Source of the DNA: Aminobacter sp. AP02
Lineage (GTDB): Bacteria > Pseudomonadota > Alphaproteobacteria > Rhizobiales > Rhizobiaceae
NCBI RefSeq assembly: GCF_003148805.1
Contig: NZ_QGGX01000009.1
Coordinates: 62,001-126,000 of the forward strand
Length of the DNA stretch: 64,000 nucleotides
Direction of reading: 5' to 3'
The position numbers and the translations under genes are program-made. The stretch's first letter is position 1. Every line of letters starts with the position of its first letter. Positions 23,235 to 51,235 of the stretch are shown piece by piece. The notes beneath the pieces were generated by a model. That model was not told where the DNA came from and searched no databases. It saw nothing but the letters and a program-made list of their open reading frames with translations.

Positions 23235-24002
23235 TCAGATTCGGTCCAGCATGCCGTCGAGCCAGGCAAAGAAGCCCTTGGCACCGTCAGTGTTTTCAGC
23301 GAGCACCGCCGAGCCGGCACTCGCAGCTAATGGCTTGCGCGGCCGCGGAGGCAGGTACTTGTTAGTTGGGCGCGTGCCCTGCTCCGGCATGAGATCGTAG
23401 CCGCCGCGCTCAGCCACCATGCGCGAGACATCTGAAGTCGGATCGCCGAGGTCGCCATAGTGCCGGGCATTGGCGGGGCACGTGCGGACGCAGGACGGAA
23501 CGCGGTCGATTTCCTTCAGCGTCTCGTTGTAGATGCGGTCGACGCACAGCGTGCATTTCTTCATCACGCCGGCGGCAAGGTCCATCTCGCGCGCACCGTA
23601 AGCGCAGGACCAGGCGCACAGCCCGCAGCCGATGCATTTGCTCTCGTCGACCAGCACGATGCCGTCTTCGGCGCGCTTGTAGGAAGCGCCCGTAGGACAG
23701 ACGGTGACACACGGCGCATCCTCGCAATGCAGGCAGGATTTCGGGAAATGCACGATGCGCGCGTCGCCCGCCTCGCCAATTACCTGACCGCCTTCAGGCA
23801 CGACCTCGAAGGTGTGGATCCGGTTGAGGAAGGTACCGGAGACATCAGCGCCATAGGGTTGCTGGTCGGACAGCGCGGCACCATAGCCTCCGGTATTCCA
23901 TTCCTTGCAGCTGATGACGCAGGCATGACAACCGACGCAAACGTCGAGGTCGATCACAAGCCCGAGCTTCTTCGGTGTCGGCAGCGAAGGCAGGCTGGTC
24001 AT
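23235..24002 (-). CDS. soeB: 4Fe-4S ferredoxin subunit of the molybdoenzyme, probable SoeB
   Basis: 255-residue electron-transfer subunit with four [4Fe-4S] cysteine groups: C22-x2-C25-x2-C28-x3-C32 in VCVGCHACVISCKEW, then CLHCEDAPCVTVCPTG, CIGCGLCAWSCAYG, and CTLCVDRI with CVRTCPANA. The ATG at 24002 overlaps the soeA stop as ATGA and has GGAG upstream, so the two are translationally coupled. It relays electrons from the SoeA Mo centre to SoeC. There is no signal peptide, in keeping with a cytoplasm-facing complex. Confidence 0.85.
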   Translation of the reverse strand: MTSLPSLPTPKKLGLVIDLDVCVGCHACVISCKEWNTGGYGAALSDQQPYGADVSGTFLNRIHTFEVVPEGGQVIGEAGDARIVHFPKSCLHCEDAPCVTVCPTGASYKRAEDGIVLVDESKCIGCGLCAWSCAYGAREMDLAAGVMKKCTLCVDRIYNETLKEIDRVPSCVRTCPANARHYGDLGDPTSDVSRMVAERGGYDLMPEQGTRPTNKYLPPRPRKPLAASAGSAVLAENTDGAKGFFAWLDGMLDRI

Positions 24003-26848
24003 TTCGCCCACTCCTGGCCGTATCGCAATTCTTCGACATGGGGCAGCGCTTCGCCAGGCTGTGCAACAGCGGGGAAATGCGGCTCGCTGACAACAGCCGG
24101 CTCGGCCTTCTCGATACGCACGCGCAGGTCATACCAGGCAGCCTGGCCGGTGATCGGATCGGAATTCGACCAGCGCATTCCGTCGCCCTTGGGCGGTAGA
24201 AGTTCGTGGATCAAGTGATTCATCAGAAAGCCTTTTTTGGCTTCGGGTGCATCCTCGTCGAGCGCCCAGGCGCCTTCGCGTTTCCCGATCGCGTTCCAGG
24301 TCCAGATGGTGCTGGAATTGACCGCCTCCATGCGCGCTATCTCGACTTTGATGCGCCCATGGTGCGAAATCACCCAGACCCAGTCACCGTCGACAAGCCC
24401 GATCTCGTCACAGATCGGCCCCGGCACATAGAGCGGGTTCTTGGTATGGATCTGCCTGAGCCAGGCGTTCATCGAGCCCCAGGAGTGGTACATCGCTGCC
24501 GGGCGCTGGGTGATGGCGTGATAGGGATATTCCTCGCGGCTGACGGCCGCTTCCTCGAACGGTCGATACCACATCGGCAGCGGGTCGAAGGTGGCGAGGA
24601 TGCGCTCGCGATGCGTCTCAGGCGCCACCGGCTCGCGCCGTCCCTCGGCCGAAAGCCGGAATTTCTGCAGCGATTCCTGATAGAGCTGGAATGTCACCGG
24701 CTTAGGCTCGTCGAAAAAGCCCATGCGCACGGCAAAATCCTGGTAGGCCTTGTTGGCGTGCTTGAAGAACTGCGCTTCGAGCGGAATATGCGCCGAAAAG
24801 AACGAGCCGTTTTCGATATAGCGCTTGAGCTGGTCTGGGTTGGCCGCGCCGCGACCCGTGCGAGTGCCATCGCTGCCGCGGAAACCTGCTAGCGGGCCGA
24901 TGCCGGGCCTGCGTTCGTGGCGAACGATGTAGTCGGCATAGTCTTTGTAGAGCGCCTTGCCATGATTGTCGGCGAAGCCCGGCAGCCGTAGCCTCGCACC
25001 GAGATCCAGCAGCACGCTCTGGAAGCCGCGCACGTCGCGGTCGGGCTCGACTACGGGCCAGCGGATGGCATCCTGGACCGCGTCCGGCTCGGAAATCGGC
25101 CGGTCGAGCAGCGAGATGCAGTCGTGACGTTCGAGATAAGTTGTGTCCGGCAGCACGAGGTCGGCATATGCCACCATCTCGGAGGAATAGGCATCGGAAT
25201 AGATGATCTTGGGGATGCGGTACTCGCCAGTAGCCGGGTCCTTGTCTTCCAGCATCTTGATGACGCCGGCCGTGTTCATCGACGAGTTCCAGGCCATGTT
25301 GGCCATGTAGAGGAACATCAGGTCGATCGAATACGGGTCGCCGGCATGCGCGTTGGCGATCACCATGTGCATCAGCCCGTGGGCCGAAATCGGCGCATCC
25401 CAGGAAAACGCCTTGTCGATGCGCATCGGCTGGCCTTGGGCGTCGATCAGCAGGTCCTCCGGTCCTCTGGGAAAACCGAGATGCGGGCCCGAAAGCGGCT
25501 TGTTGGATCCAAAGTGCTCAGCCTTGCCGTGCGGCGTCGGATGCGCCTCGACAGGTTTGGGGTATGGCGGCTCGAAGCGGAAGGCACCGGGGCAATCGAC
25601 AGCACCAATTAGCACTTGCAGCATGTGCAGGGCGCGCGCCGTCTGGAACCCGTTGGAGTGAGCCGAAAGCCCGCGCATGGCGTGAAACGACACAGGCCGC
25701 CCGACGAATGCCTCGTGGCGCTCGCCGTTCATGTCGGTCCAGGGCTGGTCGATCCTGATTGCCTCTTCGAAGGCTACACGCGCGATCTCGGCGGCGAGGC
25801 CGCGGATCACGTCGGCGGATACACCTGTCTCCTGGGCAACTGCCTCAGGTGCATATTGGGGGTCGAGATACTTTTCGGCGAGCAACTGGAATGCCGGTAC
25901 GGCGAAGCGGCCATCCGGCAACTCGACACGGCCTGAAAGTGCTGGGCGCGCGCCTTTCGTTCCGAGAGGCACGACATGTTCGGTCACGGTTTCGAAGACC
26001 TGCGGCTTTCCGTTTTCATCGCGCGCGAAAAGCCCGTGCTCGGCGGAGCCCGGCGCATCGACAACCAGCCAGGTCGCATTGGAATAGCGCACGATGTAGT
26101 CCACATCGATCTTTCGCGCCTTGAGCAGTTCGTGCACGACCGCGAGGATCAGCAGGCCATCGGTTCCCGGACGTATGCCGATCCAGTTGTCGGCGACGGA
26201 CGAATAGCCGGTGCGCACCGGATTGACCGACACGAAGCGAGCGCCGCGCTTCTTGAGCTTCGAGATGCCGATCTTGATCGGGTTGGAATCGTGATCCTCG
26301 GCAACGCCGAACATCACGAACAGCTTTGTCCGGTCCCAATCGGGCGCACCGAACTCCCAGAACGCGCCGCCGATCGTCATGATGCCACCGGCCGCCATGT
26401 TGACGGAGCAAAAGCCGCCATGCGCCGCATAGTTAGGCGTGCCGAACTGCTGCGCCCAGAAGCCGGTCAGCGACTGCGACTGGTCGCGCCCGGTGAAAAA
26501 GGCAAGCTTCTTCGGATCGGCCTGACGGACGCCGTCGAGCCAGCCGGTGGCGAGCGCCAGCGCCTCGTCCCAGGAAATCTCCTTGAATTCGCCCGAACCG
26601 CGCGGCCCGGTCCTGAGCAGCGGGGCCTTGAGCCGTGCTGGGGCGTAATGCTGCATGATGCCGGCCGAGCCCTTGGCGCACAGGACGCCGCGATTGACTG
26701 GGTGGTCGCGGTTGCCTTCGATGTAGCGGACCTTGCCGTCCTTGATGTGGACATCGATGCCGCAGCGGCACGCGCACATGTAGCAGGTGGTCTTGCGGAC
26801 CTCGTCGGATACCGGCTCCGAAAGCGCTACCTGCGGTTCTGACTTCAT
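23999..26848 (-). CDS. soeA: Molybdopterin oxidoreductase, probable sulfite dehydrogenase SoeA
   Basis: 949-residue catalytic subunit of the DMSO-reductase superfamily binding bis-MGD and one [4Fe-4S]. The FS0 cysteines are C22, C25, C29 and C57 (CYMCACRC...LCAKG). Cys147 in GGFCSVN is the likely Mo ligand. Other landmarks are FVSVNPVRTGYSS, LVLPDTTYLERHD and the C-terminal MGD-binding NSDPITGQAAWYD. There is no Tat signal, so the active site is cytoplasmic. Length, gene order and lack of export match SoeA, which oxidises sulfite to sulfate and feeds the quinone pool; substrate assignment is from family resemblance only. A TauE/SafE-type sulfite exporter homologue is about 11 kb away. Confidence 0.75.
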   Translation of the reverse strand: MKSEPQVALSEPVSDEVRKTTCYMCACRCGIDVHIKDGKVRYIEGNRDHPVNRGVLCAKGSAGIMQHYAPARLKAPLLRTGPRGSGEFKEISWDEALALATGWLDGVRQADPKKLAFFTGRDQSQSLTGFWAQQFGTPNYAAHGGFCSVNMAAGGIMTIGGAFWEFGAPDWDRTKLFVMFGVAEDHDSNPIKIGISKLKKRGARFVSVNPVRTGYSSVADNWIGIRPGTDGLLILAVVHELLKARKIDVDYIVRYSNATWLVVDAPGSAEHGLFARDENGKPQVFETVTEHVVPLGTKGARPALSGRVELPDGRFAVPAFQLLAEKYLDPQYAPEAVAQETGVSADVIRGLAAEIARVAFEEAIRIDQPWTDMNGERHEAFVGRPVSFHAMRGLSAHSNGFQTARALHMLQVLIGAVDCPGAFRFEPPYPKPVEAHPTPHGKAEHFGSNKPLSGPHLGFPRGPEDLLIDAQGQPMRIDKAFSWDAPISAHGLMHMVIANAHAGDPYSIDLMFLYMANMAWNSSMNTAGVIKMLEDKDPATGEYRIPKIIYSDAYSSEMVAYADLVLPDTTYLERHDCISLLDRPISEPDAVQDAIRWPVVEPDRDVRGFQSVLLDLGARLRLPGFADNHGKALYKDYADYIVRHERRPGIGPLAGFRGSDGTRTGRGAANPDQLKRYIENGSFFSAHIPLEAQFFKHANKAYQDFAVRMGFFDEPKPVTFQLYQESLQKFRLSAEGRREPVAPETHRERILATFDPLPMWYRPFEEAAVSREEYPYHAITQRPAAMYHSWGSMNAWLRQIHTKNPLYVPGPICDEIGLVDGDWVWVISHHGRIKVEIARMEAVNSSTIWTWNAIGKREGAWALDEDAPEAKKGFLMNHLIHELLPPKGDGMRWSNSDPITGQAAWYDLRVRIEKAEPAVVSEPHFPAVAQPGEALPHVEELRYGQEWAK

Positions 26849-27924: not shown

Positions 27925-27952
27925 TTGACTTGCCCCCTCTCGGGCATAGGTT
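27925..27952 (+). promoter_or_regulatory. Candidate sigma70-type promoter of the amine oxidase operon
   Basis: TTGACT (27925-27930), a 16-base spacer and TAGGTT (27947-27952), about 90 bases before the oxidase start. The remaining part of the 307-base gap 27734-28040 shows no gene. Confidence 0.45.
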
Positions 27953-28040: not shown

Positions 28041-29642
28041 ATGCAACAATCCCAGTATTTTACCGGTATGAGCAGGCGAAACCTGCTGTCGTTGATCGGC
28101 CTGACGGCCGGTACAGCGGCGATGTATCAGGCGATGACCAGCCTCGGTCTCGCGGTTGAGTCAGGCTACAAGGGGCCGGTCAAGCTAGAGGGTGACCCAA
28201 AGGGCGCAACCGTGCTGATCTTGGGTGCGGGCCTGGCTGGCATGACGGCCGCACTCGAGCTTCGCCAGGTCGGCTACAAGGTAAAGATCCTCGAATACAA
28301 CAAGAGGTCAGGTGGGCGAAACTGGACGCTGCGCGGCGGCGACACCTACACCGAGCTTGGTGGGGCGACGCAGAAGTGCGAATTCGATGAAGGCCTCTAC
28401 ATCAATCCCGGCCCGTGGCGCATTCCCTACCATCATAACGGCCTATTGGCCTATTGCCGTCGCCTCGGTGTCACCCTCGAGCCATTCCAGCAGCTTAACC
28501 ACAACGCCTTTTTGCATTCGTCCAAGGCGTTCGGCGGCAAGCCGCAGCGTGTCCGCGACATCAAGATCGACTTCCAGGGCCATGTCTCGGAATTGCTGGC
28601 CAAGATTGCCCACACCGGCAAGCTCGAAGGCGGCGTCACCAAGGAAGACCAGGAGATGTTGGTCGAGGCGCTGCGCTCCTGGGGCGCGCTCGACAAGGAC
28701 TATGCCTATACCAAGAGTGTCGCGACCTCTGAATTCCGCGGCTTTGCCCAGGACCCCGGTGGCGGCCTGGGCGGCGCGCCAGTTCCGAGCGAGCCTATCG
28801 CGCTTGCCGACATCTTGAGTTCAGGCCTGTGGGGTAGCCTCGCCAATTTCTCGCTCTATGAGTTCCAGACGACCATGTTCCAACCGGTCGGCGGCATCGA
28901 CATGATCGGCAAGGCATTCACCAAGGAAGTCGGCGACCTCATCACCTACAATTCCAAGGTCTCCAAGATCCATCAGGACGACAAGGGTGTCACCGTCACC
29001 TATGAGGACGTGACCAATCCCGGCGCAATGAAGGAAGAGAAAGCCGACTGGTGCATCTGCACCATCCCGCTGACCATTCTCAGCCAGATTGAGATCAATG
29101 TCGGCGCCCCGATGCAGGCTGCGATCGAGGCCGTGCCATACGCCTCATCGGTAAAGGTCGGCCTGCAATTCAAGCGCCGTTTCTGGGAGCAGGACGAACT
29201 GATCTTTGGCGGTGTCAGCTATACGGACCTGCCAATCACCCAGATTTCGTATCCGAGCACCAGTTTCAACACCAACGGCAAGGGCGTATTGCTCGGCGCC
29301 TACACCTGGAACGGTCCGCACTCCTACGAGTTCACCTCAATGGTACCGGAAGAGCGCGTCAGGCGCGCCGTCGAATATGGCACGATGATCCATCCGCAAT
29401 ACAAGGACGAGTTCGAGAACGGCATCTCGATGGCCTGGCACCGCTCGCCCTTCACGCTTGGCTGCGCCGGCGACTGGACCGAGGAAGCACGCAAGGAGCA
29501 CTACGACAATCTCTGCCAGATCGATGGCCGCATCGTGCTCGCTGGCGAGCACGCCTCTTACATCCCTGCGTGGATGGAGGGCGCGATCCTGTCGTCGCTC
29601 GATGCGATCACCAGGCTGCATCAGCGCGTCGTGACGGGATGA
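28041..29642 (+). CDS. Tat-exported FAD-dependent amine oxidase/dehydrogenase
   Basis: 533-residue flavin amine oxidase (MAO/L-amino-acid-oxidase superfamily) that converts an amine to an imine. A twin-arginine motif, SRRNLLSLIG at 11-20, indicates folded export to the periplasm. FAD binding is seen in LILGAGLAGMTAALEL (GxGxxG at 62-67), then RSGGRNWTLRGG, and the C-terminal AGEHASYIPAWMEGAILSS. GGAGG lies 10 bases before the ATG at 28041; the frame open to 27930 has no support. The next genes encode a secreted cytochrome c and a secreted RidA, so electrons may go to cytochrome c rather than O2, as with NicA2 and CycN in Pseudomonas. The substrate is unknown. Confidence 0.85.
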   Translation: MQQSQYFTGMSRRNLLSLIGLTAGTAAMYQAMTSLGLAVESGYKGPVKLEGDPKGATVLILGAGLAGMTAALELRQVGYKVKILEYNKRSGGRNWTLRGGDTYTELGGATQKCEFDEGLYINPGPWRIPYHHNGLLAYCRRLGVTLEPFQQLNHNAFLHSSKAFGGKPQRVRDIKIDFQGHVSELLAKIAHTGKLEGGVTKEDQEMLVEALRSWGALDKDYAYTKSVATSEFRGFAQDPGGGLGGAPVPSEPIALADILSSGLWGSLANFSLYEFQTTMFQPVGGIDMIGKAFTKEVGDLITYNSKVSKIHQDDKGVTVTYEDVTNPGAMKEEKADWCICTIPLTILSQIEINVGAPMQAAIEAVPYASSVKVGLQFKRRFWEQDELIFGGVSYTDLPITQISYPSTSFNTNGKGVLLGAYTWNGPHSYEFTSMVPEERVRRAVEYGTMIHPQYKDEFENGISMAWHRSPFTLGCAGDWTEEARKEHYDNLCQIDGRIVLAGEHASYIPAWMEGAILSSLDAITRLHQRVVTG

Positions 29643-29692
29643 CGGAGATGTCCGTCCATCCCTCAACCCTCGTTATCGCAAGGCATGTCGAC

Positions 29693-30106
29693 ATGACCCA
29701 GCAATCCAAGCGTTCACTCGGCCTCATCGCCGCCACAGCGTTCTTCACTGCATACTCGGCCGCCGGAGCCCTCGCAGACTCGGCGGGCGCGACCTTCAGC
29801 GACGGTGACAAGTTTTCTGAAAAGACAGGCCAGGAACTTTATACCAACGTCTGCCAGGCCTGCCACATGGACAAGGGACAAGGTGCGGTTGGCGCCGGCA
29901 AGTACCCGGCACTCGCCAAGAACGCGAACCTGGAATCCGGAGGCTATCCCATCTACGTCATCGTGCATGGCCAAAAAGGCATGCCCCCGGTCGGCAGTAT
30001 GATGAGCGACGACCAGGTGGCCGCGGTCGTGAATTATGTCCGGACCAATTTCGGCAACGACTACAAGGATGCGGTGACGGCGGAAGACGTCGCCGGCGCA
30101 CGCTGA
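29693..30106 (+). CDS. Secreted mono-haem cytochrome c
   Basis: 137 residues with a signal peptide ending AAGALA and one c-haem site, CQACH at 54-58; KGMPPVGSMMSDDQV supplies the axial Met. It is a small class I cytochrome c. ATGs at 29639 (overlapping the oxidase stop as ATGA) and 29648 are also in frame, but 29693 puts the start directly on the signal peptide, with AAGG 9 bases ahead. Its position directly behind the flavoenzyme makes it the likely electron acceptor, passing electrons on to a terminal oxidase. Confidence 0.86.
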   Translation: MTQQSKRSLGLIAATAFFTAYSAAGALADSAGATFSDGDKFSEKTGQELYTNVCQACHMDKGQGAVGAGKYPALAKNANLESGGYPIYVIVHGQKGMPPVGSMMSDDQVAAVVNYVRTNFGNDYKDAVTAEDVAGAR

Positions 30107-30230
30107 CACATCCTCGTCGAATGGCAATGATGCACGAATCCAACGGCTTGGAGCGATTGCCCTAAGCACCGTCGCGGCCGGCACTTGCTGCCGGCCGCAC
30201 CAATCCCATGCGGCAAAGAAGGAGTAGAAG

Positions 30231-30731
30231 ATGACAAAGATGCGGATCGGCGCCGCCACGCTTGTGGCCGGCCTTTTCGTCACCTGCAGCGCGATGGCCC
30301 AAGACGTCGTGCGCCACAGGATTCCGAATTCCGACTTCCCGATAGCCCAGGCCGTCGAAGTGCCGGCTGGCAAGACGACTGTCTATGTCAGCGGCGCAGT
30401 ACCTTCGGTCATCGACGAGAAGGCTGAAAAAGGCAGCATCGCAGCCTATGGCAACACCAAGACCCAGACGGAAACGGTGTTCAAGTCCATCGAAAAGACA
30501 CTCGACGGTCTCGGCCTCAAGATGGGTGACGTGATCAAGATGCAGGTCTTCCTCGTTGGCGACCCTGAAAAGGGCGGCAAGATGGATTTTGCCGGCTTCA
30601 TGGAGGGCTACGTCAAGTTCTTCGGCACCAAGGAGCAGCCCAACCTGCCGTCGCGTTCGGTGATGCAGGTTGCCGCCCTTGCCGCTCCGGGCTGGCTGGT
30701 CGAAATCGAAGTCACCGCCGTTCGCCCCTGA
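30231..30731 (+). CDS. Exported RidA-family imine deaminase
   Basis: 166 residues. The N-terminus MRIGAATLVAGLFVTCSAMAQ is a signal peptide cut after AMA, unusual for RidA, which normally works in the cytosol. The mature part is a full YjgF/YER057c domain, with VYVSGAVPS, QTETVFKSIEKTLDGLGLKMGDVIKMQVFL and the catalytic Arg142 in LPSRSVMQVAAL (equivalent to Arg105 of E. coli RidA). It should hydrolyse reactive imines or enamines to ketone and ammonia. AAGGAG sits ideally before the ATG. With the Tat amine oxidase upstream it fits release of ammonia in the periplasm. Confidence 0.88.
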   Translation: MTKMRIGAATLVAGLFVTCSAMAQDVVRHRIPNSDFPIAQAVEVPAGKTTVYVSGAVPSVIDEKAEKGSIAAYGNTKTQTETVFKSIEKTLDGLGLKMGDVIKMQVFLVGDPEKGGKMDFAGFMEGYVKFFGTKEQPNLPSRSVMQVAALAAPGWLVEIEVTAVRP

Positions 30732-30845
30732 TCGGATCGGGTCTCGCAGGCTGCCCGAAAGCGGACGGCCTGCGCGCTCGACACGGATGGACGGATGCGC
30801 AAGACTGGCGGTCGATCCGGGGCAGAAGTGAATCGTGTCCACCGC

Positions 30846-32126
30846 ATGTATGACAAGCTTTTCAAGACCATAGACGACCGGCGTGAAGAACTGGCCGAAC
30901 TGACGGCACAGCTGATCCGCTTTCCGACCATCAATCCGCCTGGAGATGCCTATCGTCCTTGCGCCGAATTCCTCGGTGAGCGGCTGGCCAAGCGCGGTTT
31001 CGGCATTGAATACATACGCGCCGAGGGCACGCCTGGCGACACGGACCGCTATCCGCGTATCAACGTCGTCGCCCGTTTCGATGGCAGGTCGCGGGGCCAG
31101 ACTGTGCATTTCAACTCACACATAGATGTCGTGGAGGCGGGCGAAGGCTGGTCGGTCGATCCGTTTGCCGGCATCATCCGCGACGGTCGTGTCTATGGCC
31201 GTGGCGCTTGCGACATGAAAGGCGGACTCGCCGCCTCGATCATTGCCGCCGAAGCCTTCATGGACGTGAACCCCGACTTTCCCGGTGCCATCGAGATTTC
31301 TGGCACAGTCGACGAAGAATCCGGCGGTTTCGGCGGCGTCGCCTATCTCGCAGGCAAGGGCTATTTCTCGAAACCCAAGGTCGACCACGTCATCATCCCC
31401 GAACCACTCAACAAGGATCGCATCTGCCTTGGCCATCGTGGCGTCTGGTGGGCCGAGATCGAAACCAAGGGCGAGATCGCACACGGCTCGATGCCCTTCC
31501 TCGGCGATTGCGCGGTGCGCCACATGGGCGCGGTGCTGGAGGCCTTCGAGCGAGAGTTGTTTCCCGCACTCGACCGCAAGACGACGCGGATGCCGGTCGT
31601 GCCTGAGGGTGCGCGGCGATCGACCATGAACATCAATTCGATCCATGGCGGACAGACCGACGATTTCCGCCCGGGTCTGCCCTCGCCCAACGTGCCCGAT
31701 TCGTGCCGGCTGACCATCGACCGTCGCTTCTTGCTCGAAGAAAACATCGTTGACGTGAAGGGCGAGGTGACCAGCATTCTCGAGCGCCTGAAGCGCGAGC
31801 GCAAGAAATTCGACTACGAGATTCACGACATCATGGAGGTGCAGCCGTTGATGACCGAGCGCGATGCGCCGGTAGCGTCTGCAGTCGCCAAGGGCATTCG
31901 CGAGATTTTCGGCAAGGAGCCGGAATATGTCATCTCGCCCGGAACCTACGACCAGAAACATGTCGCCCGAATAGGCCATTTGTACGATTGTATCGCTTAC
32001 GGCCCAGGTATTCTCGACCTCGCCCACCGGCCTGACGAGTGGGTTGGCATCGACGACATGGTGCAATCGGCAAAGGTCATGGCAATCGGCCTCGACATAT
32101 TGCTGCGCGGCCAGTTCAACGGCTGA
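30846..32126 (+). CDS. M20-family amidohydrolase (ArgE/DapE/acetylornithine deacetylase-like)
   Basis: 426-residue cytosolic metallohydrolase. Metal-binding residues are visible: His92-x-Asp94 in FNSHIDVVEAGEGW, the bridging Asp in YGRGACDMKGG, the catalytic Glu pair in TVDEESGG, and a late His in ILDLAHRPDEW. It cleaves an N-acyl or peptide bond; the ArgE/DapE group covers succinyl-diaminopimelate, N-acetyl and dipeptide substrates. The frame is open to an upstream ATG at 30795 (443 residues); I prefer 30846 from family length. Lying between the amine module and a peptide importer, it probably acts on the imported compound. Confidence 0.83.
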   Translation: MYDKLFKTIDDRREELAELTAQLIRFPTINPPGDAYRPCAEFLGERLAKRGFGIEYIRAEGTPGDTDRYPRINVVARFDGRSRGQTVHFNSHIDVVEAGEGWSVDPFAGIIRDGRVYGRGACDMKGGLAASIIAAEAFMDVNPDFPGAIEISGTVDEESGGFGGVAYLAGKGYFSKPKVDHVIIPEPLNKDRICLGHRGVWWAEIETKGEIAHGSMPFLGDCAVRHMGAVLEAFERELFPALDRKTTRMPVVPEGARRSTMNINSIHGGQTDDFRPGLPSPNVPDSCRLTIDRRFLLEENIVDVKGEVTSILERLKRERKKFDYEIHDIMEVQPLMTERDAPVASAVAKGIREIFGKEPEYVISPGTYDQKHVARIGHLYDCIAYGPGILDLAHRPDEWVGIDDMVQSAKVMAIGLDILLRGQFNG

Positions 32127-32263
32127 ACGGACAAGCAACGCTAGCTCGACCGGTTAGGAAATTCATTTCGGCAGCACCGCTGCAGTTGCAACAAACTTGA
32201 TTTACTCGGCCGGAAAATAGCGCTTCTATCCGGCACGTCGAAGTTGAGCGGGGAGAGTTGAGA

Positions 32264-33745
32264 ATGAAGCATTGGAAAACCGTCGTGACGGCCGCGGCAT
32301 TTGCCTTGGCATCCAGCACCGCCGCAATGGCCGCCCGCACCGACCTGGTGCTCGGCATGCCACTTGAACCGCCTCATCTCGACCCGACAGCAGGTGCGGC
32401 AGCCGCCATCGACGAAGTGCTTTATGCCAATGTCTTCGAGGGCCTGACCCGCATCGGCTCGCGCGGCGAGGTGCTACCTGATCTCGCCGAGAGCTGGACC
32501 ATTTCCGACGACGGCAAGGTCTATACGTTCAAGCTGCACACCGGCGTGAAATTCCACGACGGCAGCGACTTTGACGCTTCGGACGTGAAGTTCTCGCTCG
32601 ACCGCGCTCGCGGCGAAAACTCGGTCAATGCGCAAAAGGGCCTGTTTGCGGCGATCGACACCGTGGAGGTCGTCGACCCAAGCACCGTCAAGGTGACGCT
32701 GAAGAACCCGCTCGGCTCGTTCCTGTACAATCTCGGCTGGGGCGACGCGGTGATCGTGGCGCCCGATAGCGCCGACACCAACAAGGAAAAGCCCATCGGC
32801 ACCGGCCCGTTCAAGTTCCAGAACTGGGCCAAGGGCTCGTCGATCACGCTGGTCAAGGCCGATGGTTACTGGGGCGATCCTATCGCGCTCGACAAGGCCG
32901 AATTCCGCATCATCCCGGATGCGGCCGCAGCGATCCCTGCTTTGCTGTCCGGCGACGTGCAGGCGCTGCCCAATTTCGCGCTCGGCGATGCGCTCGCCCA
33001 GGTCAAGGCCGACCCGCGCTTCAAGGTCGTCATCGGCACGACCGAAGGCGAAACGGTGCTCGCCACCAACAACAAGCGCCCGCCCTTCGACAAACTCAAG
33101 GTGCGTCAGGCAATCGCGCATGCCATCGACCGCAAGGCGCTCATCGATGGCGCCACTGGCGGCCTCGGCACGCCGATCGGCTCGCATTTTGCCCCACATA
33201 ACCCGGCCTATGTCGACTTGACCGGTACTTATCCGCATGACCTCGCCAAGGCCAAGGAACTGCTCAAGGAAGCGGGCCTTCCCGACGGCTTCAAGGCTAC
33301 GTTGAAACTGCCGCCGGTCGGCTATGCCCGCCAGGGCGGCGAGATCATCGCCTCGCAGCTGCGCGAGATTGGCGTCGACCTGCAGATCATTCCTGTCGAG
33401 TGGGCCGATTGGCTCAAGCAGGTGTTCACCGACAAGGACTACGACCTGTCGATCGTCTCGCACACCGAGCCCAACGACATCGATATCTACGCTCGCAAGG
33501 ACTATTACTTCAATTACGACAACCCCGCCTTCAACAAGGTTATCGACGAGCTCAACCTGACCTCGGACGAGACGAAGCGTACCGAGCTTTACAAGCAGGC
33601 TCAGACGATTCTTGCCGACGACGCCGTCAATGGCTTCCTCTTCGAGCTGCCTAAGGTTGGCATCTGGGACGCCAAGGTCGAGGGTCTGTGGGAGAATTCG
33701 CCCATCCAGGCCAATGACCTGACCAAGGTGAAGTGGGCTGATTGA
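32264..33745 (+). CDS. Peptide-type ABC transporter substrate-binding protein (SBP_bac_5)
   Basis: 493-residue periplasmic binding protein of the DppA/OppA class. The signal peptide ends SSTAAMA; mature sequence begins around RTDLVLGMPLEPPHLDP, with ANVFEGLTRIGSRGEVLPDLAESW and the KKPPFDKLKVRQAIAHAIDRKAL-type segment near the middle. The ATG at 32264 has GGGAG upstream; a TTG two codons earlier is ignored. It heads a four-gene importer, starting 137 bases after the M20 gene. The ligand could be a peptide, an acylated amino acid or another amine conjugate. Confidence 0.9.
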   Translation: MKHWKTVVTAAAFALASSTAAMAARTDLVLGMPLEPPHLDPTAGAAAAIDEVLYANVFEGLTRIGSRGEVLPDLAESWTISDDGKVYTFKLHTGVKFHDGSDFDASDVKFSLDRARGENSVNAQKGLFAAIDTVEVVDPSTVKVTLKNPLGSFLYNLGWGDAVIVAPDSADTNKEKPIGTGPFKFQNWAKGSSITLVKADGYWGDPIALDKAEFRIIPDAAAAIPALLSGDVQALPNFALGDALAQVKADPRFKVVIGTTEGETVLATNNKRPPFDKLKVRQAIAHAIDRKALIDGATGGLGTPIGSHFAPHNPAYVDLTGTYPHDLAKAKELLKEAGLPDGFKATLKLPPVGYARQGGEIIASQLREIGVDLQIIPVEWADWLKQVFTDKDYDLSIVSHTEPNDIDIYARKDYYFNYDNPAFNKVIDELNLTSDETKRTELYKQAQTILADDAVNGFLFELPKVGIWDAKVEGLWENSPIQANDLTKVKWAD

Positions 33746-33888
33746 GACTTAGGCACTCGCGATTTCGGCATGATCCCTTACGCAAATAAGGTGCGCTTCA
33801 CGCGGCCGTGCAAGAGTTCTGTGAACTGCGCTGCTCCGCAACTCTCGCAAGCTTTCGGAGCGGCATTTTCTCGGGCAGTTTGCGATTG

Positions 33889-34836
33889 ATGACAGCCTAC
33901 TTGCTCAAACGCCTGCTGATCGGAATGGTGACCCTGGGCGTCGCTTCCGTCGTAGTGTTCTTGATGCTTGAGGTTGTCCCAGGCGATCCGGCGCGGCTGA
34001 TGCTGGGCATGAATGCCAGCGACGCTCAGGTCGAGCTCTTGCGCGACCAGATGGGCCTCAATCAGCCGTTGGTCGTGCGCTATCTCACCTGGGCCGGCGG
34101 TTTGCTGTCACTCGACTTCGGCAAGTCCTACACCTACTCCGTGCCTGTGATCGACCTGATCAAGGAGCGCCTGGTCGTTTCCTTTCCGCTCGCCATCATT
34201 GCGCTCACCCTGTCCACGCTGATCGCCATTCCTGTTGGGCTGTTTGCCGCCGCACGTCGCGGCAAGGCCGCAGACACGGCCGCCATGGCCGTGGCACAGG
34301 TCGGAGTGGCAATGCCGAACTTCTGGTTCGCGCTGCTGCTCGTCTATGTCTTCGCCGTCTGGCTCAGACTGGTACCCGCGGGCGGCTTTCCCGGCTGGGG
34401 CAATGGCGTCTGGCCGGCGTTGAAGGCTCTGATCCTGCCGGCAATGGCCCTTGCCTTGCCGCAGGCTGCCATTCTGGCTCGCGTCACACGTGCCGCCTTG
34501 ATCGAGGTTCTGAGCGAAGACTATATCCGTACCGCCCGCGCCAAGGGCATGCCGATGCGCGCGGTGCTGTGGCGGCATGCGCTGCGCAACGCCATGATCC
34601 CGGTGCTCACCATCATGGGTCTGCAGTTCGCCTTCCTGCTCGCCGGCACCATCATCATCGAAAACGTCTTCTACCTGCCCGGCCTCGGCCGGCTGGTCTT
34701 CCAGGCGATCACCCAACGCGACCTGATCGTGGTTGAAAGCGTGGTGATGCTGCTCGTGGCAGCCGTGGTCGTGGTCAACCTGCTCGTCGACCTCTCATAC
34801 GCGGTGGTCGATCCACGTCTGAGGACGCGGCAATGA
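33889..34836 (+). CDS. Peptide ABC transporter permease (DppB-like)
   Basis: 315-residue inner-membrane permease. Six helices are apparent, starting MTAYLLKRLLIGMVTLGVASVVVFLML and continuing EVVPGDPARLMLG; the EAA loop reads DYIRTARAKGMPMRAVLWRHALRNAMIPVLT. The frame is open from 33808, but the DppB family begins at MTAYLLKR, so 33889 is used. It overlaps the next permease by the ATGA at 34833-34836. Confidence 0.92.
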   Translation: MTAYLLKRLLIGMVTLGVASVVVFLMLEVVPGDPARLMLGMNASDAQVELLRDQMGLNQPLVVRYLTWAGGLLSLDFGKSYTYSVPVIDLIKERLVVSFPLAIIALTLSTLIAIPVGLFAAARRGKAADTAAMAVAQVGVAMPNFWFALLLVYVFAVWLRLVPAGGFPGWGNGVWPALKALILPAMALALPQAAILARVTRAALIEVLSEDYIRTARAKGMPMRAVLWRHALRNAMIPVLTIMGLQFAFLLAGTIIIENVFYLPGLGRLVFQAITQRDLIVVESVVMLLVAAVVVVNLLVDLSYAVVDPRLRTRQ

Positions 34837-35702
34837 GCGATGCTGCCCCGCACCGCGAAGAGACCTTCGGCGACCTCGTCGGCCGGGCACTTGCCAACCG
34901 CTCCTTCGTCATCGGCCTGTTCATCACCCTGGTCGTTGCGGGCATGGCGCTGGTATCGTTCTTCTGGACGCCCTTTGACGTTACCAGGCTGATCGTTGCA
35001 GACCGGATGCAACCGCCATCCGCAGCGCATTGGTTCGGCACCGACCATTTCGGCCGCGACGTGCTGTCGATGATCATGCTCGGCGCCCGCAATTCGATCG
35101 CCGTCGCCTTGGTTGCAGTTGTCATCGGCATGGGCATCGGGGTGCCGCTCGGCTGTTGGGCCGCGGCGCGCGGTGGGTGGATCGATGAGGCGCTGATGCG
35201 CTTCAACGACGTTGTCTTTGCCTTTCCCGCACTCCTCTCCGCGATCATGATCACCGCGGTCTTTGGCCCGAGCGCGGTCAATGCCATCATAGCCATCGGC
35301 ATCTTCAACATCCCGGTCTTTGCGCGTGTCGCTCGTGCCGGAGCACTGTCGATCTGGCCGCGCGAATACATTTTGGCCGCGCGTGCCGCCGGCAAGAACA
35401 AGACGCGCATCACCATCGAGCACATCCTTCCCAACATCGCCAACCTGCTGCTGGTGCAAGGAACCATCCAGTTCGCGCTCGGCATCCTCGCCGAAGCCGC
35501 CCTGTCTTATGTCGGGCTTGGCACGCAGCCGCCAATGCCGAGCTGGGGGCGCATGCTGTTCGACGCGCAGACGCTGATGATGGTGGCGCCTTGGCTCGCC
35601 CTCTTCCCCGGTTGCGCGATACTGCTCACCGTCTTGGGCCTCAATCTGCTTGGCGACGGCATCTCAGACATCTTCGATCCGCGTGCGAGGCGGCGGATAT
35701 GA
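34833..35702 (+). CDS. Peptide ABC transporter permease (DppC-like)
   Basis: 289-residue second permease of the importer. A hydrophilic start (MSDAAPHREETFGDLV) precedes the first helix; HWFGTDHFGRDVLSMIMLGARNSI is the family hallmark and the EAA loop is EYILAARAAGKNKTRITIEHILPNI. It overlaps both neighbours by 4 bases, so all three membrane and ATPase genes are translationally coupled. Confidence 0.93.
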   Translation: MSDAAPHREETFGDLVGRALANRSFVIGLFITLVVAGMALVSFFWTPFDVTRLIVADRMQPPSAAHWFGTDHFGRDVLSMIMLGARNSIAVALVAVVIGMGIGVPLGCWAAARGGWIDEALMRFNDVVFAFPALLSAIMITAVFGPSAVNAIIAIGIFNIPVFARVARAGALSIWPREYILAARAAGKNKTRITIEHILPNIANLLLVQGTIQFALGILAEAALSYVGLGTQPPMPSWGRMLFDAQTLMMVAPWLALFPGCAILLTVLGLNLLGDGISDIFDPRARRRI

Positions 35703-37324
35703 GCCTGCTTGCGATCGAAAAACTGTCGTTGAAGATTGGCAGCTTGCCGATCCTGAGGGATATCGACCTGTCGATCGCACCAGGCGAGGTCCTGGGCCTA
35801 GTCGGCGAATCCGGCTCAGGCAAATCGATGACCGCACTTGCCATCATGCAGCTTGCCCCTGCATCCGCGCGGGCCAAGGGCCGCATCACATTCGACGGCA
35901 CTGACATCCTGGGCGCATCAGAACAGCAGATGTGCGCGCTGCGTGGCGACGACATCGGAATGATCTTCCAGGAGCCGATGACCGCGCTGAATCCGGTCAA
36001 GACCATTGGCGAGCAGGTTGCCGAGGGCATCCGTTGGCATACGAGGGCCAGCCGCGCCGAGGCGGAGGAGCGCGCGAAAAAGATACTCGACCGCGTCGGC
36101 CTGCCGGAGCAGAAGTTCGCGCTGTCGCGCTATCCGCACGAGCTGTCAGGAGGCCAGCGCCAGCGCGTGGCGATCGCCATTGCCTGCGCGCTGAAACCCA
36201 AGCTTCTGATCGCTGACGAGCCGACGACGGCGCTCGACGTCGTATTGCAGGCGCAAATCCTCGACCTGCTGAAAGAATTGGTCAGCGAAAACAAGATGAG
36301 CCTGCTGTTCATCTCGCATGATCTGGCCGTGGTCACGGACATGGCAGACAGGATCACCATCCTGCGCCAGGGCACAGTCATAGCGACAGGCGACACCGCG
36401 CAGACCCTGTCGGAAGCCAACCATCCCTACACGCGCCAGCTCGCTCTTGCCTCCACCCACGTGCCGGCGCGGGTGAAGCCGCATGTGGACAATACAGGCG
36501 CTGACAACCTGCTCGAAGTGTCCAACATCACGCGAGAATATCCTGGCCGGCGCAGGTCGCTATTTTCCAGGTCAGAACCGGTACGTGCGGTGGACAACGT
36601 TTCACTGACCATGAAGCCTGGCGCATCAGTGGCACTCGTCGGGCGCTCCGGATGTGGAAAATCCACCCTCGCACGCATGATCCTGGCGCTCGACACGCCG
36701 ACGTCGGGTGCGATCAAGTTCCGCGGCATGAGCATCACTGGGCGCAGCGAGGCCGACCTGAAGCCAGCCCGCCGCAACATGCAGGTGGTGTTTCAGGATC
36801 CCTATGGGTCGTTCGATCCGCGACATACGGTGGAGCGGCTGGTCGCAGAACCGCTGCACCTGCTGGAACGGCGTCCCGACCGCAAGGAGCGCCGCAACAT
36901 GGTGGCGCGCGCACTGCACGAAGTCGGCCTCAGCCGCTCCGACATGGAGAAGTATCCGCACGAATTCTCCGGCGGCCAGCGCCAGCGCCTTTCCATCGCT
37001 CGCGCGATCATCACACGGCCCAAGCTGATTGTTGCCGACGAGCCGGTGTCGGCGCTCGACGTGTCGATCCGCGCCCAGATCCTCGACCTGTTCGCCGAAC
37101 TCAACCACAAGCTAGGCGTCGCCTATCTGTTCATCACCCATGACCTGACGGTCGCCCGCGCCATCACCGACGACGTGCTGATCATGCATGAAGGTAGGAT
37201 TGTCGAACGTGGCAAGACTGCCCAGGTGCTCGACCAGCCAACGTCGGAAGCCGCGCAAGCACTGGTGTCGGCCGCACCAGACTTGCACCGAGCGATTGCC
37301 CGGCGGCTGCAGGAGCAAGGGTAG
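35699..37324 (+). CDS. Fused dual peptide ABC transporter ATPase (DppD-DppF type)
   Basis: 541 residues holding two complete ATPase domains, as in GsiA/YejF. First domain: Walker A GESGSGKSM, signature LSGGQRQRVAIA, Walker B LLIADEPTTALD. Second domain, from about residue 270: Walker A GRSGCGKST, signature FSGGQRQRLSIA, Walker B LIVADEPVSALD. The stretch PHELSGGQR and PHEFSGGQR are the peptide-importer form of the signature. The start at 35699 overlaps the DppC-like stop. This completes the importer, so no other ATPase is needed. Confidence 0.94.
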   Translation: MSLLAIEKLSLKIGSLPILRDIDLSIAPGEVLGLVGESGSGKSMTALAIMQLAPASARAKGRITFDGTDILGASEQQMCALRGDDIGMIFQEPMTALNPVKTIGEQVAEGIRWHTRASRAEAEERAKKILDRVGLPEQKFALSRYPHELSGGQRQRVAIAIACALKPKLLIADEPTTALDVVLQAQILDLLKELVSENKMSLLFISHDLAVVTDMADRITILRQGTVIATGDTAQTLSEANHPYTRQLALASTHVPARVKPHVDNTGADNLLEVSNITREYPGRRRSLFSRSEPVRAVDNVSLTMKPGASVALVGRSGCGKSTLARMILALDTPTSGAIKFRGMSITGRSEADLKPARRNMQVVFQDPYGSFDPRHTVERLVAEPLHLLERRPDRKERRNMVARALHEVGLSRSDMEKYPHEFSGGQRQRLSIARAIITRPKLIVADEPVSALDVSIRAQILDLFAELNHKLGVAYLFITHDLTVARAITDDVLIMHEGRIVERGKTAQVLDQPTSEAAQALVSAAPDLHRAIARRLQEQG

Positions 37325-49262: not shown

Positions 49263-50840
49263 ATGACCGTGGCCCTGCAAACAGCCGAACAGGCTCCCGC
49301 CTCCGATCGCGCTCGCCGCGGTGGCCGTGCCGGCAAGCGCGCCGGCGGCTCGCAGGCGTTCGAACAGCCGCCGTTCCGGCAGCTGAAGATTCCGTTTGCA
49401 CCGACAAGGCTGATTTCCGAAGACGAACTGGAATCGATCCACCTGGCATCGCTGCGGGTGCTGAAAGAGATTGGCGTCGACGTCCTGCACGACGAGGCGC
49501 GGCGCATCATGAAGGCGCATGGCGCCGATGTGCGTGACGGTTCGGAACGCGTGCGCTTCGATGCCGAAATGATCCTCGAGCTGATTTCACATGCGCCGGC
49601 CGAATTCACCCTGCATGCCCGCAATCCCGCGCACAATGTGCGTTTCGGCGGCAACAACCTCGTGCTGTCGCAGATGGCGTCGGCCCCCAACTGCTCCGAC
49701 CTCGACCGTGGCCGTCGCCCTGGCAACCAGGCCGACTACCGCAATTTTCTCAAGCTCGCCCAGATGCACAACATTCTGAACACCACGGGCGGCTATCCGG
49801 TCGAGCCGGTGGATATCCATCCCTCGATCCGCCACCTCGAATGCATCCGCGACCTCGCCACCCTCACCGACAAGGTGTTCCACATCTATTCGCTCGGCAA
49901 GGAGCGCAACGTCGATGGCATCGAGATCACCCGCATCGCTCGCGGCATTTCCCGCGAACAGATGATGGAGGAACCCTCGGTCTACACCATCATCAACACC
50001 AACTCGCCGCTCAAACTCGACGTGCCGATGATGGAAGGCATCATCCAGATGTCGTCGATGGGCCAGGTGGTGATCGTCACCCCGTTCACGCTGTCCGGCG
50101 CCATGGCGCCCGTCACCATCGCCGGCGCGCTTGTGCAGCAGAACGCTGAAGCGCTCTCGGGCCTCGCCTTCACCCAGATGGTCAAGAAGGGCGCACCGGT
50201 CGGGTATGGCGGCTTCACCTCCAATGTCGACATGAAGTCAGGTGCGCCGGCCTTCGGCACGCCAGAATACATGAAGGCGCAGCTGATCGGCGGCCAACTC
50301 GCCCGCCGCTACAACATCCCCTATCGCACCTCGAATGTATGCGCCGCCAACGCGGTCGACGCACAGGCTGCCTATGAAAGCGTGTTTTCGCTGTGGGGTG
50401 CTATCCAGGGCGGCGCCAATTTCATTCTTCACGGCGCAGGCTGGCTCGAAGGAGGGCTGCGCTGCTCCTACGAGAAGATGATCCTCGACATCGACCTGTT
50501 GCAGATGGTGGCCGAGTTCCTGACGCCGCTCGACCTGTCGGAAGAGGCGCTCGCGATCGACGCCATTCGCGACGTCGGCCCCGGCGGGCACTTCTTCGGC
50601 ACCCAGCACACCCAGGATCGCTACAAGAACGCCTTCTACTCCCCGATCATTTCCGACTGGCGGAATTTTGAGACATGGGCCGAGGCGGGCAGTCCCACAG
50701 CTGTTGAAAAAGCCAATCGCGTCTGGAAGGAGCGCCTCGCCACCTATGAGGAGCCGTGGATGGACCCAGCCATTCGCGAAGAGCTCAACGCCTTTGTCGA
50801 CAAGCGCAAGGCCGAGGGCGGCGCGCCGACCGACTTCTGA
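49263..50840 (+). CDS. MttB-family methyltransferase without pyrrolysine
   Basis: 525-residue member of the trimethylamine methyltransferase superfamily (COG5598), which moves a methyl group from a quaternary or tertiary amine to a corrinoid protein or another acceptor. The chain is open through the position of the amber pyrrolysine codon of archaeal MttB, so it belongs to the non-Pyl group that includes MtgB (glycine betaine). Motifs include GVDVLHDEARRIMKAHGADV, VLSQMASAPNCSDLDRGRRPG and GGHFFGTQHTQDRYKNAFYSP. GAGG lies 5 bases before ATG 49263. It heads a run with a Rid protein and a dimethylglycine-type dehydrogenase. No corrinoid protein is in the window, so its methyl acceptor is unclear. 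Confidence 0.87.
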   Translation: MTVALQTAEQAPASDRARRGGRAGKRAGGSQAFEQPPFRQLKIPFAPTRLISEDELESIHLASLRVLKEIGVDVLHDEARRIMKAHGADVRDGSERVRFDAEMILELISHAPAEFTLHARNPAHNVRFGGNNLVLSQMASAPNCSDLDRGRRPGNQADYRNFLKLAQMHNILNTTGGYPVEPVDIHPSIRHLECIRDLATLTDKVFHIYSLGKERNVDGIEITRIARGISREQMMEEPSVYTIINTNSPLKLDVPMMEGIIQMSSMGQVVIVTPFTLSGAMAPVTIAGALVQQNAEALSGLAFTQMVKKGAPVGYGGFTSNVDMKSGAPAFGTPEYMKAQLIGGQLARRYNIPYRTSNVCAANAVDAQAAYESVFSLWGAIQGGANFILHGAGWLEGGLRCSYEKMILDIDLLQMVAEFLTPLDLSEEALAIDAIRDVGPGGHFFGTQHTQDRYKNAFYSPIISDWRNFETWAEAGSPTAVEKANRVWKERLATYEEPWMDPAIREELNAFVDKRKAEGGAPTDF

Positions 50841-50851
50841 GGAAATTTCCC

Positions 50852-51235
50852 ATGCACAAACGAGAGATCAGCTCGCGCGACGCTCCGACTGTCACCACCG
50901 GATACGCGCAGGCGATCGAGGTGACCAATCATTCTAGAACACTCTTCATCAGCGGCCAGATTCCGGTGGCAAAGGACGGGTCCGTTCCCGCCGATTTCGA
51001 AAGCCAGTGTCGACTGGCGTGGAAGAACGTCGAGGCACAGCTGCACACTGCCGGCATGAACCTCGACAATCTGGTCAAGGTGACGACCTTCCTGTCTGAC
51101 CGCGCCTTCAACCTCGACAACAGGCGCATTCGCAACGAGGTGATCGGCGAACGCAAGATCGCCCTTACAGTCATCATTACGGGCATTTTCGACGAATCCT
51201 GGCTGTTGGAGATCGAAGCCATCGCGGCGGCATGA
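50852..51235 (+). CDS. Rid-family protein lacking the RidA arginine
   Basis: 127-residue cytosolic YjgF/Rid domain: TLFISGQIPVAKDG, CRLAWKNVEAQLHTAGMNLDNLVKVTTFLS and LLEIEAIAAA. The position of RidA Arg105 falls in ERKIALTVIITG and is not Arg, so classical imine deaminase activity is doubtful; it belongs to one of the Rid1-Rid7 groups. It starts 11 bases after the methyltransferase and 51 bases before the dehydrogenase, both on the same strand. Confidence 0.87.
   Translation: MHKREISSRDAPTVTTGYAQAIEVTNHSRTLFISGQIPVAKDGSVPADFESQCRLAWKNVEAQLHTAGMNLDNLVKVTTFLSDRAFNLDNRRIRNEVIGERKIALTVIITGIFDESWLLEIEAIAAA

Follow-up and report, generated by a model that had tools for sequence, protein, structure and literature searches.

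We were curious whether eight consecutive genes of the soil bacterium Aminobacter sp. AP02 work as one pathway, and what the flavoenzyme at their head oxidizes and with which electron acceptor. The genes occupy 28041-37324 of the stretch analyzed here (64,000 nucleotides of contig NZ_QGGX01000009.1, which we call the window). A sequence-only reading of this DNA had proposed that they couple amine oxidation outside the cytoplasm to an M20 amidohydrolase and a peptide importer; all eight genes that it listed are present and open on the plus strand. We favor a different division, with a probability of about 0.78: the first three genes (28041-30731) would form a self-contained periplasmic cassette that oxidizes L-amino acids, passes the electrons to a cytochrome and uses a Rid3-type protein to clear the imine, and the M20-importer module would be independent. 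The two parts share orientation and site, though probably not a pathway. The cassette consists of:

28041..29642, plus strand: LAO, a predicted FAD (flavin adenine dinucleotide)-dependent L-amino acid oxidase/dehydrogenase with a twin-arginine (Tat) signal; 533 amino acids (aa), Pfam Amino_oxidase 6e-54
29693..30106, plus strand: secreted monoheme cytochrome c; Pfam Cytochrome_CBB3 9e-13 and Cytochrom_C 2e-10 (longer start used)
30231..30731, plus strand: predicted Rid3-type imine/enamine deaminase with a Sec-type signal; PF01042 9e-20

The three products all carry export signals, which were judged by motif, by reading and by a crude rule, without SignalP. LAO begins with the twin-arginine motif SRRNLL; the cytochrome, for which 29693 is the better start, has its heme motif CQACH at 29852-29866; and the Rid N-terminus (MTKMRIGAATLVAGLFVTCSAMA-QD) reads as a Sec-type signal. 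A Tat signal on the flavoenzyme and a Sec signal on the adjacent cytochrome c, the marks of a cytochrome-using flavin dehydrogenase, are thus both found here; Akram et al. 2025 (PMC12224317) saw this combination go with the use of cytochrome in most of the NicA2-like flavoenzymes that they assayed. The genome (5.6 Mb in 72 contigs) has one match of this oxidase and 20 Rid-domain matches.

By sequence (PDB sequence search), fold and residues, the oxidase belongs to the branch of L-amino acid oxidases (LAAOs), to which it lies nearer in the fold test than to amine oxidases. An arginine and a tyrosine that bind the substrate carboxylate are kept: R127 in 125/125 homologs and Y421 in 123/125 (F in the other two), positions taken from PDB sequence alignments, with the tyrosine clearest in the second alignment. 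We take them to be Arg84 and Tyr371 of the Rhodococcus opacus LAAO. W511 is likewise kept in 125/125 homologs. No NicA2-named entry was present among the best 60 of 102 PDB sequence matches or among the 50 fold matches listed, and an NCBIfam search gave nothing above cut-off among 25 of 39 matches listed. Placement on the LAAO branch does not bear out the amine substrate assumed in the sequence-only reading.

The arrangement recurs beyond chance. In one collection of species genomes, a contig scan confirmed at least 589 of 597 stretches as coding for relatives of the oxidase; we kept the best 80 loci, which therefore lean to close relatives. Oxidase and cytochrome are adjacent on the same strand in 79 of these 80, the exception being a locus with no cytochrome after the oxidase (L121). 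Of the 79 loci whose downstream sequence spans 1.3 kb or more, 46 have a Rid gene between -2.5 and +3.5 kb. Pooling all sources (125 loci), the cytochrome adjoins the oxidase in 110/111 loci at 47% identity or more and in 2/14 below; a truncated oxidase (L049, 413 aa) with no cytochrome or Rid nearby was dropped from tree and counts, and its inclusion gives 110/112. A duplicate (L046, of L086) was left out of the tree and is counted among the 125 loci. On a quickly built LG tree whose long branches were flagged, and which we used for the cytochrome clade and for the scatter of the full gene set, the cytochrome-linked oxidases form a clade of 111 rows with a Shimodaira-Hasegawa-like approximate likelihood ratio test (SH-aLRT) value of 100, which holds both the window LAO and the LAO of Gluconacetobacter diazotrophicus PAL5. 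Within the LAAO branch the cytochrome thus tracks a single clade, while a Rid gene is frequent without being obligatory. Many Proteobacteria keep oxidase and cytochrome linked; this conservation and the export signals uphold the earlier proposal that a flavin dehydrogenase, a cytochrome c and a Rid are all exported and work together.

The oxidase was found in 14 of 151 relatives (E≤1e-30; one of the 14 truncated), including each of the 10 from the genus; across the class, 19 of 385 genomes have it (E≤1e-60). In a Deinococcus variant the cytochrome lies upstream of the oxidase and no Rid is found within 6 kb. On a Dinoroseobacter shibae plasmid (L030 884-8054), oxidase and cytochrome follow coxB, ctaD and a gene for oxidase assembly, neighbors that hint at the terminal acceptor. 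Three plasmids of Rhizobium and Mesorhizobium root-nodule isolates (L024, L025 and L026) carry the oxidase-cytochrome pair amid transposases or recombinases; the Rid match is split in the first and absent in the other two.

The nearest PDB chains of the Rid protein, PSPTO3006 (3e-39) and PFL1385 (1e-35), are Rid3 proteins and active deaminases with a broad imine range (PMC5619798). The Rid3 signature, in which the catalytic arginine and glutamate are kept and isoleucine replaces Tyr17 of RidA (PMC4433059), is present as Arg142 and Glu158 in 77/78 homologs and Ile38 in 76/78, the remainder lying outside the match; the equivalence of these positions to RidA is our own reading. By the crude rule, a signal peptide is present on 45 of the 46 Rids at the contig-scan loci with 1.3 kb or more downstream, against 4 of the 19 other Rid genes of the Aminobacter genome, three of these four being false on inspection. 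One other Rid gene of this genome (L199, contig C5 near 77860) has an apparently genuine signal peptide, and a second Rid-domain open reading frame lies in the window at 50756-51235 (contig coordinates C9:112879-113229). Rid3 genes sometimes cluster with amine oxidases, and the in vivo substrates of the subfamily were called unknown in 2015 (PMC4433059); the words "signal," "secreted" and "cytochrome" do not occur in the main text of that paper. The cassette offers a natural setting for the subfamily.

Taken together, these features suggest a mechanism in which the oxidation and Rid steps follow from homology and the electron transfer from linkage and the NicA2 analogy. The Tat-exported flavoenzyme would take a hydride from a periplasmic L-amino acid through its FAD, yielding a 2-imino acid. 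As has been suggested for NicA2-type enzymes (PMC12224317), the reduced flavin may then pass on its two electrons one at a time, each to a separate cytochrome molecule, with the co-encoded cytochrome c and not chiefly O2 as the acceptor. The Rid3, exported as well, would speed hydrolysis of the imino acid to a 2-oxo acid and ammonium, which would be taken up or lost. Gene content, motif-based export signals, placement on the LAAO branch, the residues of LAO and Rid3, orthology, linkage and modularity are direct observations; we infer the substrate class in this organism, the cytochrome as the main acceptor, the action of the Rid and the transcription units.

Do the remaining five genes belong to the same pathway? 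They are:

30849..32126, plus strand: M20 family deacylase/peptidase of the PRK13013 family, without signal peptide, separate module; NF009558 759 bits (cut-off 428)
32264..33745, plus strand: SBP_bac_5 solute-binding protein (SBP) of a peptide-type importer, separate module; PF00496 2e-90
33889..34836, plus strand: importer permease 1, DppB/OppB type; PF00528 and PF19300
34833..35702, plus strand: importer permease 2, DppC/OppC type; PF00528 2e-32
35699..37324, plus strand: fused two-domain ATPase of the ATP-binding cassette (ABC) type, DppD-DppF type; PF00005 in two stretches, 4e-68

The last four genes make up a complete peptide-type ABC importer with a fused two-domain ATPase, as had been claimed, and for the M20 gene 30849 is the better start. 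Under a single eight-gene pathway, the importer would bring in a conjugated amino acid or peptide, the M20 enzyme would free the amino acid and the periplasmic enzymes would oxidize it. The order and strand of the eight genes are indeed unchanged throughout the genus (10/10 genomes) and in four genomes of Mesorhizobium, the same genomes in which the cassette occupies this site; an M20-type gene of another kind is found beside the oxidase in 16 loci (Bradyrhizobium, Tardiphaga and related ones); and importers lie near the oxidase in Ketogulonicigenium, Microvirga and one further locus (L075).

The importer, however, is far more widespread than the oxidase. Its SBP was matched in 78 of 151 relatives (E≤1e-150), 11 with the cassette at the site and 67 without a known cassette there. 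We compared 20 of these 67 regions, mostly those of highest identity, chosen as having the importer and no cassette; the absence of the cassette among them is partly by choice. The M20 gene precedes the SBP in 16 of the 20 and not in the other four; it is split into three matches in one region (L177) and lies at a distance from the SBP in three (L172, L173 and L174). SBP, both permeases and the ATPase are present in 18/20, with no ATPase match in L186 and neither permeases nor an adjacent ATPase in L187. The M20 gene together with the left YkuD neighbor of the window was found in 13/20 and the right neighbor TerB or TSUP in 13/20: these regions are the same site, unoccupied. The cassette may have been gained or lost there; on the tree the full set requires 3 changes, at least 2 of them forced by starred branches. 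A large molybdopterin-type oxidoreductase gene, identified by reading together with an Fe-S subunit (window 23235-26848, minus strand, reading away from the cassette), belongs to the conserved flank.

Further observations bear on whether the two parts belong together. Both modules are present, lying apart, in one genome (G078). Mesorhizobium xinjiangense (L088) has the oxidase and gave no window-type M20 match at E≤1e-60, an empty search that alone proves nothing. The window M20 has no visible signal peptide, so its product would arise in another compartment than the cassette enzymes. Solved-structure searches of the SBP returned binders of peptides, opine-type compounds, heme and nickel and point to no one substrate; those of the M20 likewise allow none to be named. 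The different M20 (34%-44% identity), which follows the cytochrome or Rid in the 16 loci mentioned above, has a signal-like start by reading in 14 of them, and L100 and L102 have none in the part seen. Bradyrhizobium loci with a Sec-type-signal M20 after the cassette include L104 (12524-14053), L099, L105, L106, L108, L113, L117, L118 and L140.

The intergenic sequences contain two conserved promoter-like blocks, both found as comparative patterns:

27925..27950, plus strand: block TTGAC[TA]-N14-GGCATAGG, conserved and promoter-like, ahead of the oxidase gene
30777..30804, plus strand: block CTCGAC-N-AAGA, conserved and promoter-like, between the Rid and M20 genes

Both patterns were chosen post hoc, after viewing the alignment. 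The first occurs in 13 of the 14 cassette loci at the site (it is missing in L086) and nowhere else in the loci compared. The second, in a gap of about 120 nucleotides, occurs in 13/14 cassette loci versus a mean of 0.06 after shuffles that keep only base composition. Upstream of the M20 gene, block A (CTTG-N-TCAA) is found in 12/16 empty-site regions and 1/14 cassette loci, and block B (CTCGAC-N-A[AG]) in 0/16 and 13/14, respectively. A promoter and terminator consensus scan was uninformative (2 and 8 sites vs. shuffled means of 2.4 and 7.2). The cassette loci thus have a gap block of their own, different from that of the empty sites, from which we infer that the M20-importer half is likely transcribed separately or additionally. 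The coupling of the cassette to this half is not supported, since in other genomes the M20-importer module occupies this site on its own; for this reason the single pathway, which we consider improbable, was dropped as our leading interpretation.

The flavoenzyme could also be a conventional O2-using LAAO that releases H2O2 into the periplasm for antimicrobial action or nitrogen scavenging, with a cytochrome that deals with peroxide or is a redox bystander. Its nearest characterized relative, the R. opacus LAAO (PDB 2jae), is an O2-using oxidase. Lys372, which we take to be the flavin-water lysine of the oxidase family, is kept in 125/125 homologs, so no examined residue forbids O2 use. Against a conventional oxidase stands the cytochrome that adjoins the oxidase almost without exception within its clade. 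In addition, enzymes of NicA2-type clades 2 and 3, which share the Tat signal and the adjacent cytochrome c, react slowly with O2 and fast with their own cytochrome c (PMC12224317). Physiology points the same way: Rodrigues et al. 2016 (PMC5053998) described lao-cccA-ridA (GDI2456-2455-2454) in the sugarcane bacterium G. diazotrophicus PAL5, where two lao Tn5 mutants lost indole-3-acetic acid (IAA, an auxin) and up to 95% of indoles, and cited earlier work in which mutants of cytochrome c maturation (ccm) made 5% of the IAA. On balance a conventional oxidase seems distinctly unlikely. We give very little credence to a NicA2-like dehydrogenase of non-amino-acid amines (alkaloids or biogenic amines), since the enzyme lies among the LAAOs by its sequence, its fold and the residues that bind the carboxylate. 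In favor of such a dehydrogenase, a Tat flavoenzyme with a cytochrome recalls NicA2-CycN, and "flavin monoamine oxidase family protein" is the name given in 22 of 38 plasmid records with an oxidase match.

Besides the retained lysine, several points weigh against a self-contained, cytochrome-linked cassette. The roles of the PAL5 cytochrome and Rid are unproven owing to the polarity of Tn5, as the authors of that work state (PMC5053998). Pairs of NicA2-type clade 1 showed a modest reaction with cytochrome c, and one enzyme made no distinction between O2 and cytochrome c (PMC12224317), which shows that the genetic signs can fail. On a Metabacillus plasmid (L034 5977-9240), an LAAO-type gene precedes a Rid gene and has tatA and tatC genes of its own, with no cytochrome within 6 kb. 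No Rid is found nearby in 33 of the 79 loci, and the Rid would therefore be helpful rather than essential. In the 16 loci with a different M20, a periplasmic peptidase could feed the oxidase; the window M20 seems cytoplasmic, so the logic of such loci is not directly transferable.

With these points in mind, we lean toward the view that a widespread class of true L-amino acid dehydrogenases exists on the LAAO branch, in which an exported enzyme comes with a cytochrome c of its own and with a Rid3 exported to the same compartment. If so, bacteria would respire periplasmic amino acids directly, the LAAO branch would have acquired the use of cytochrome separately from the NicA2 clades, and the Rid3s of such cassettes would act as exported imine hydrolases. 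The name "flavin monoamine oxidase" would then mislead on both substrate and acceptor, and a bacterial auxin route, the one from tryptophan to indolepyruvate, would begin in the periplasm and deliver electrons to the respiratory chain.

Several known systems resemble the cassette. NicA2/Pnao-CycN, with the other cytochrome-using flavoprotein amine dehydrogenases, shares the Tat-signal flavoenzyme and the adjacent Sec-signal monoheme cytochrome c; the enzymes of that study came from a NicA2-centered search, whereas the window oxidase is on the LAAO branch and has a Rid (PMC12224317). The terms "L-amino acid," "amino acid oxidase," "LAAO" and "RidA" do not occur in its main text. The periplasmic LAO1 of Chlamydomonas, with LAO2/RidA, likewise combines an extracytoplasmic LAAO with a partner Rid, deaminates amino acids outside the cell membrane and converts tryptophan to IAA; it differs in making H2O2, and the cited text mentions no cytochrome for the alga (PMC10805672).

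The closest counterpart is the PAL5 locus, of which, judged by sequence comparison, the 28041-30731 cassette is the ortholog. LAAO, cytochrome c and Rid genes follow in the same order on one strand, LAO is 533 aa long in both, and the identities are 58% for LAO (520 aa), 48% for the cytochrome and 52% for the Rid, with a Tat signal on the PAL5 LAO and a signal-like start on its Rid. The PAL5 locus was located through one published primer, which matches in 2 of 347 genomes of the family; in genome G781 (L191) the six published primers for reverse-transcription quantitative PCR (RT-qPCR) match exactly, and the amplicons expected from their positions, 152, 220 and 214 bases long, agree with the published sizes. 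PAL5 differs in two respects, as the 14-kb stretch compared has no M20 or SBP match and a role in auxin synthesis is known there. The sequence-only reading had known no described pathway with this combination, a view overtaken by the earlier description of lao-cccA-ridA (PMC5053998): the cassette is a real, well-conserved system that has already been described in outline.

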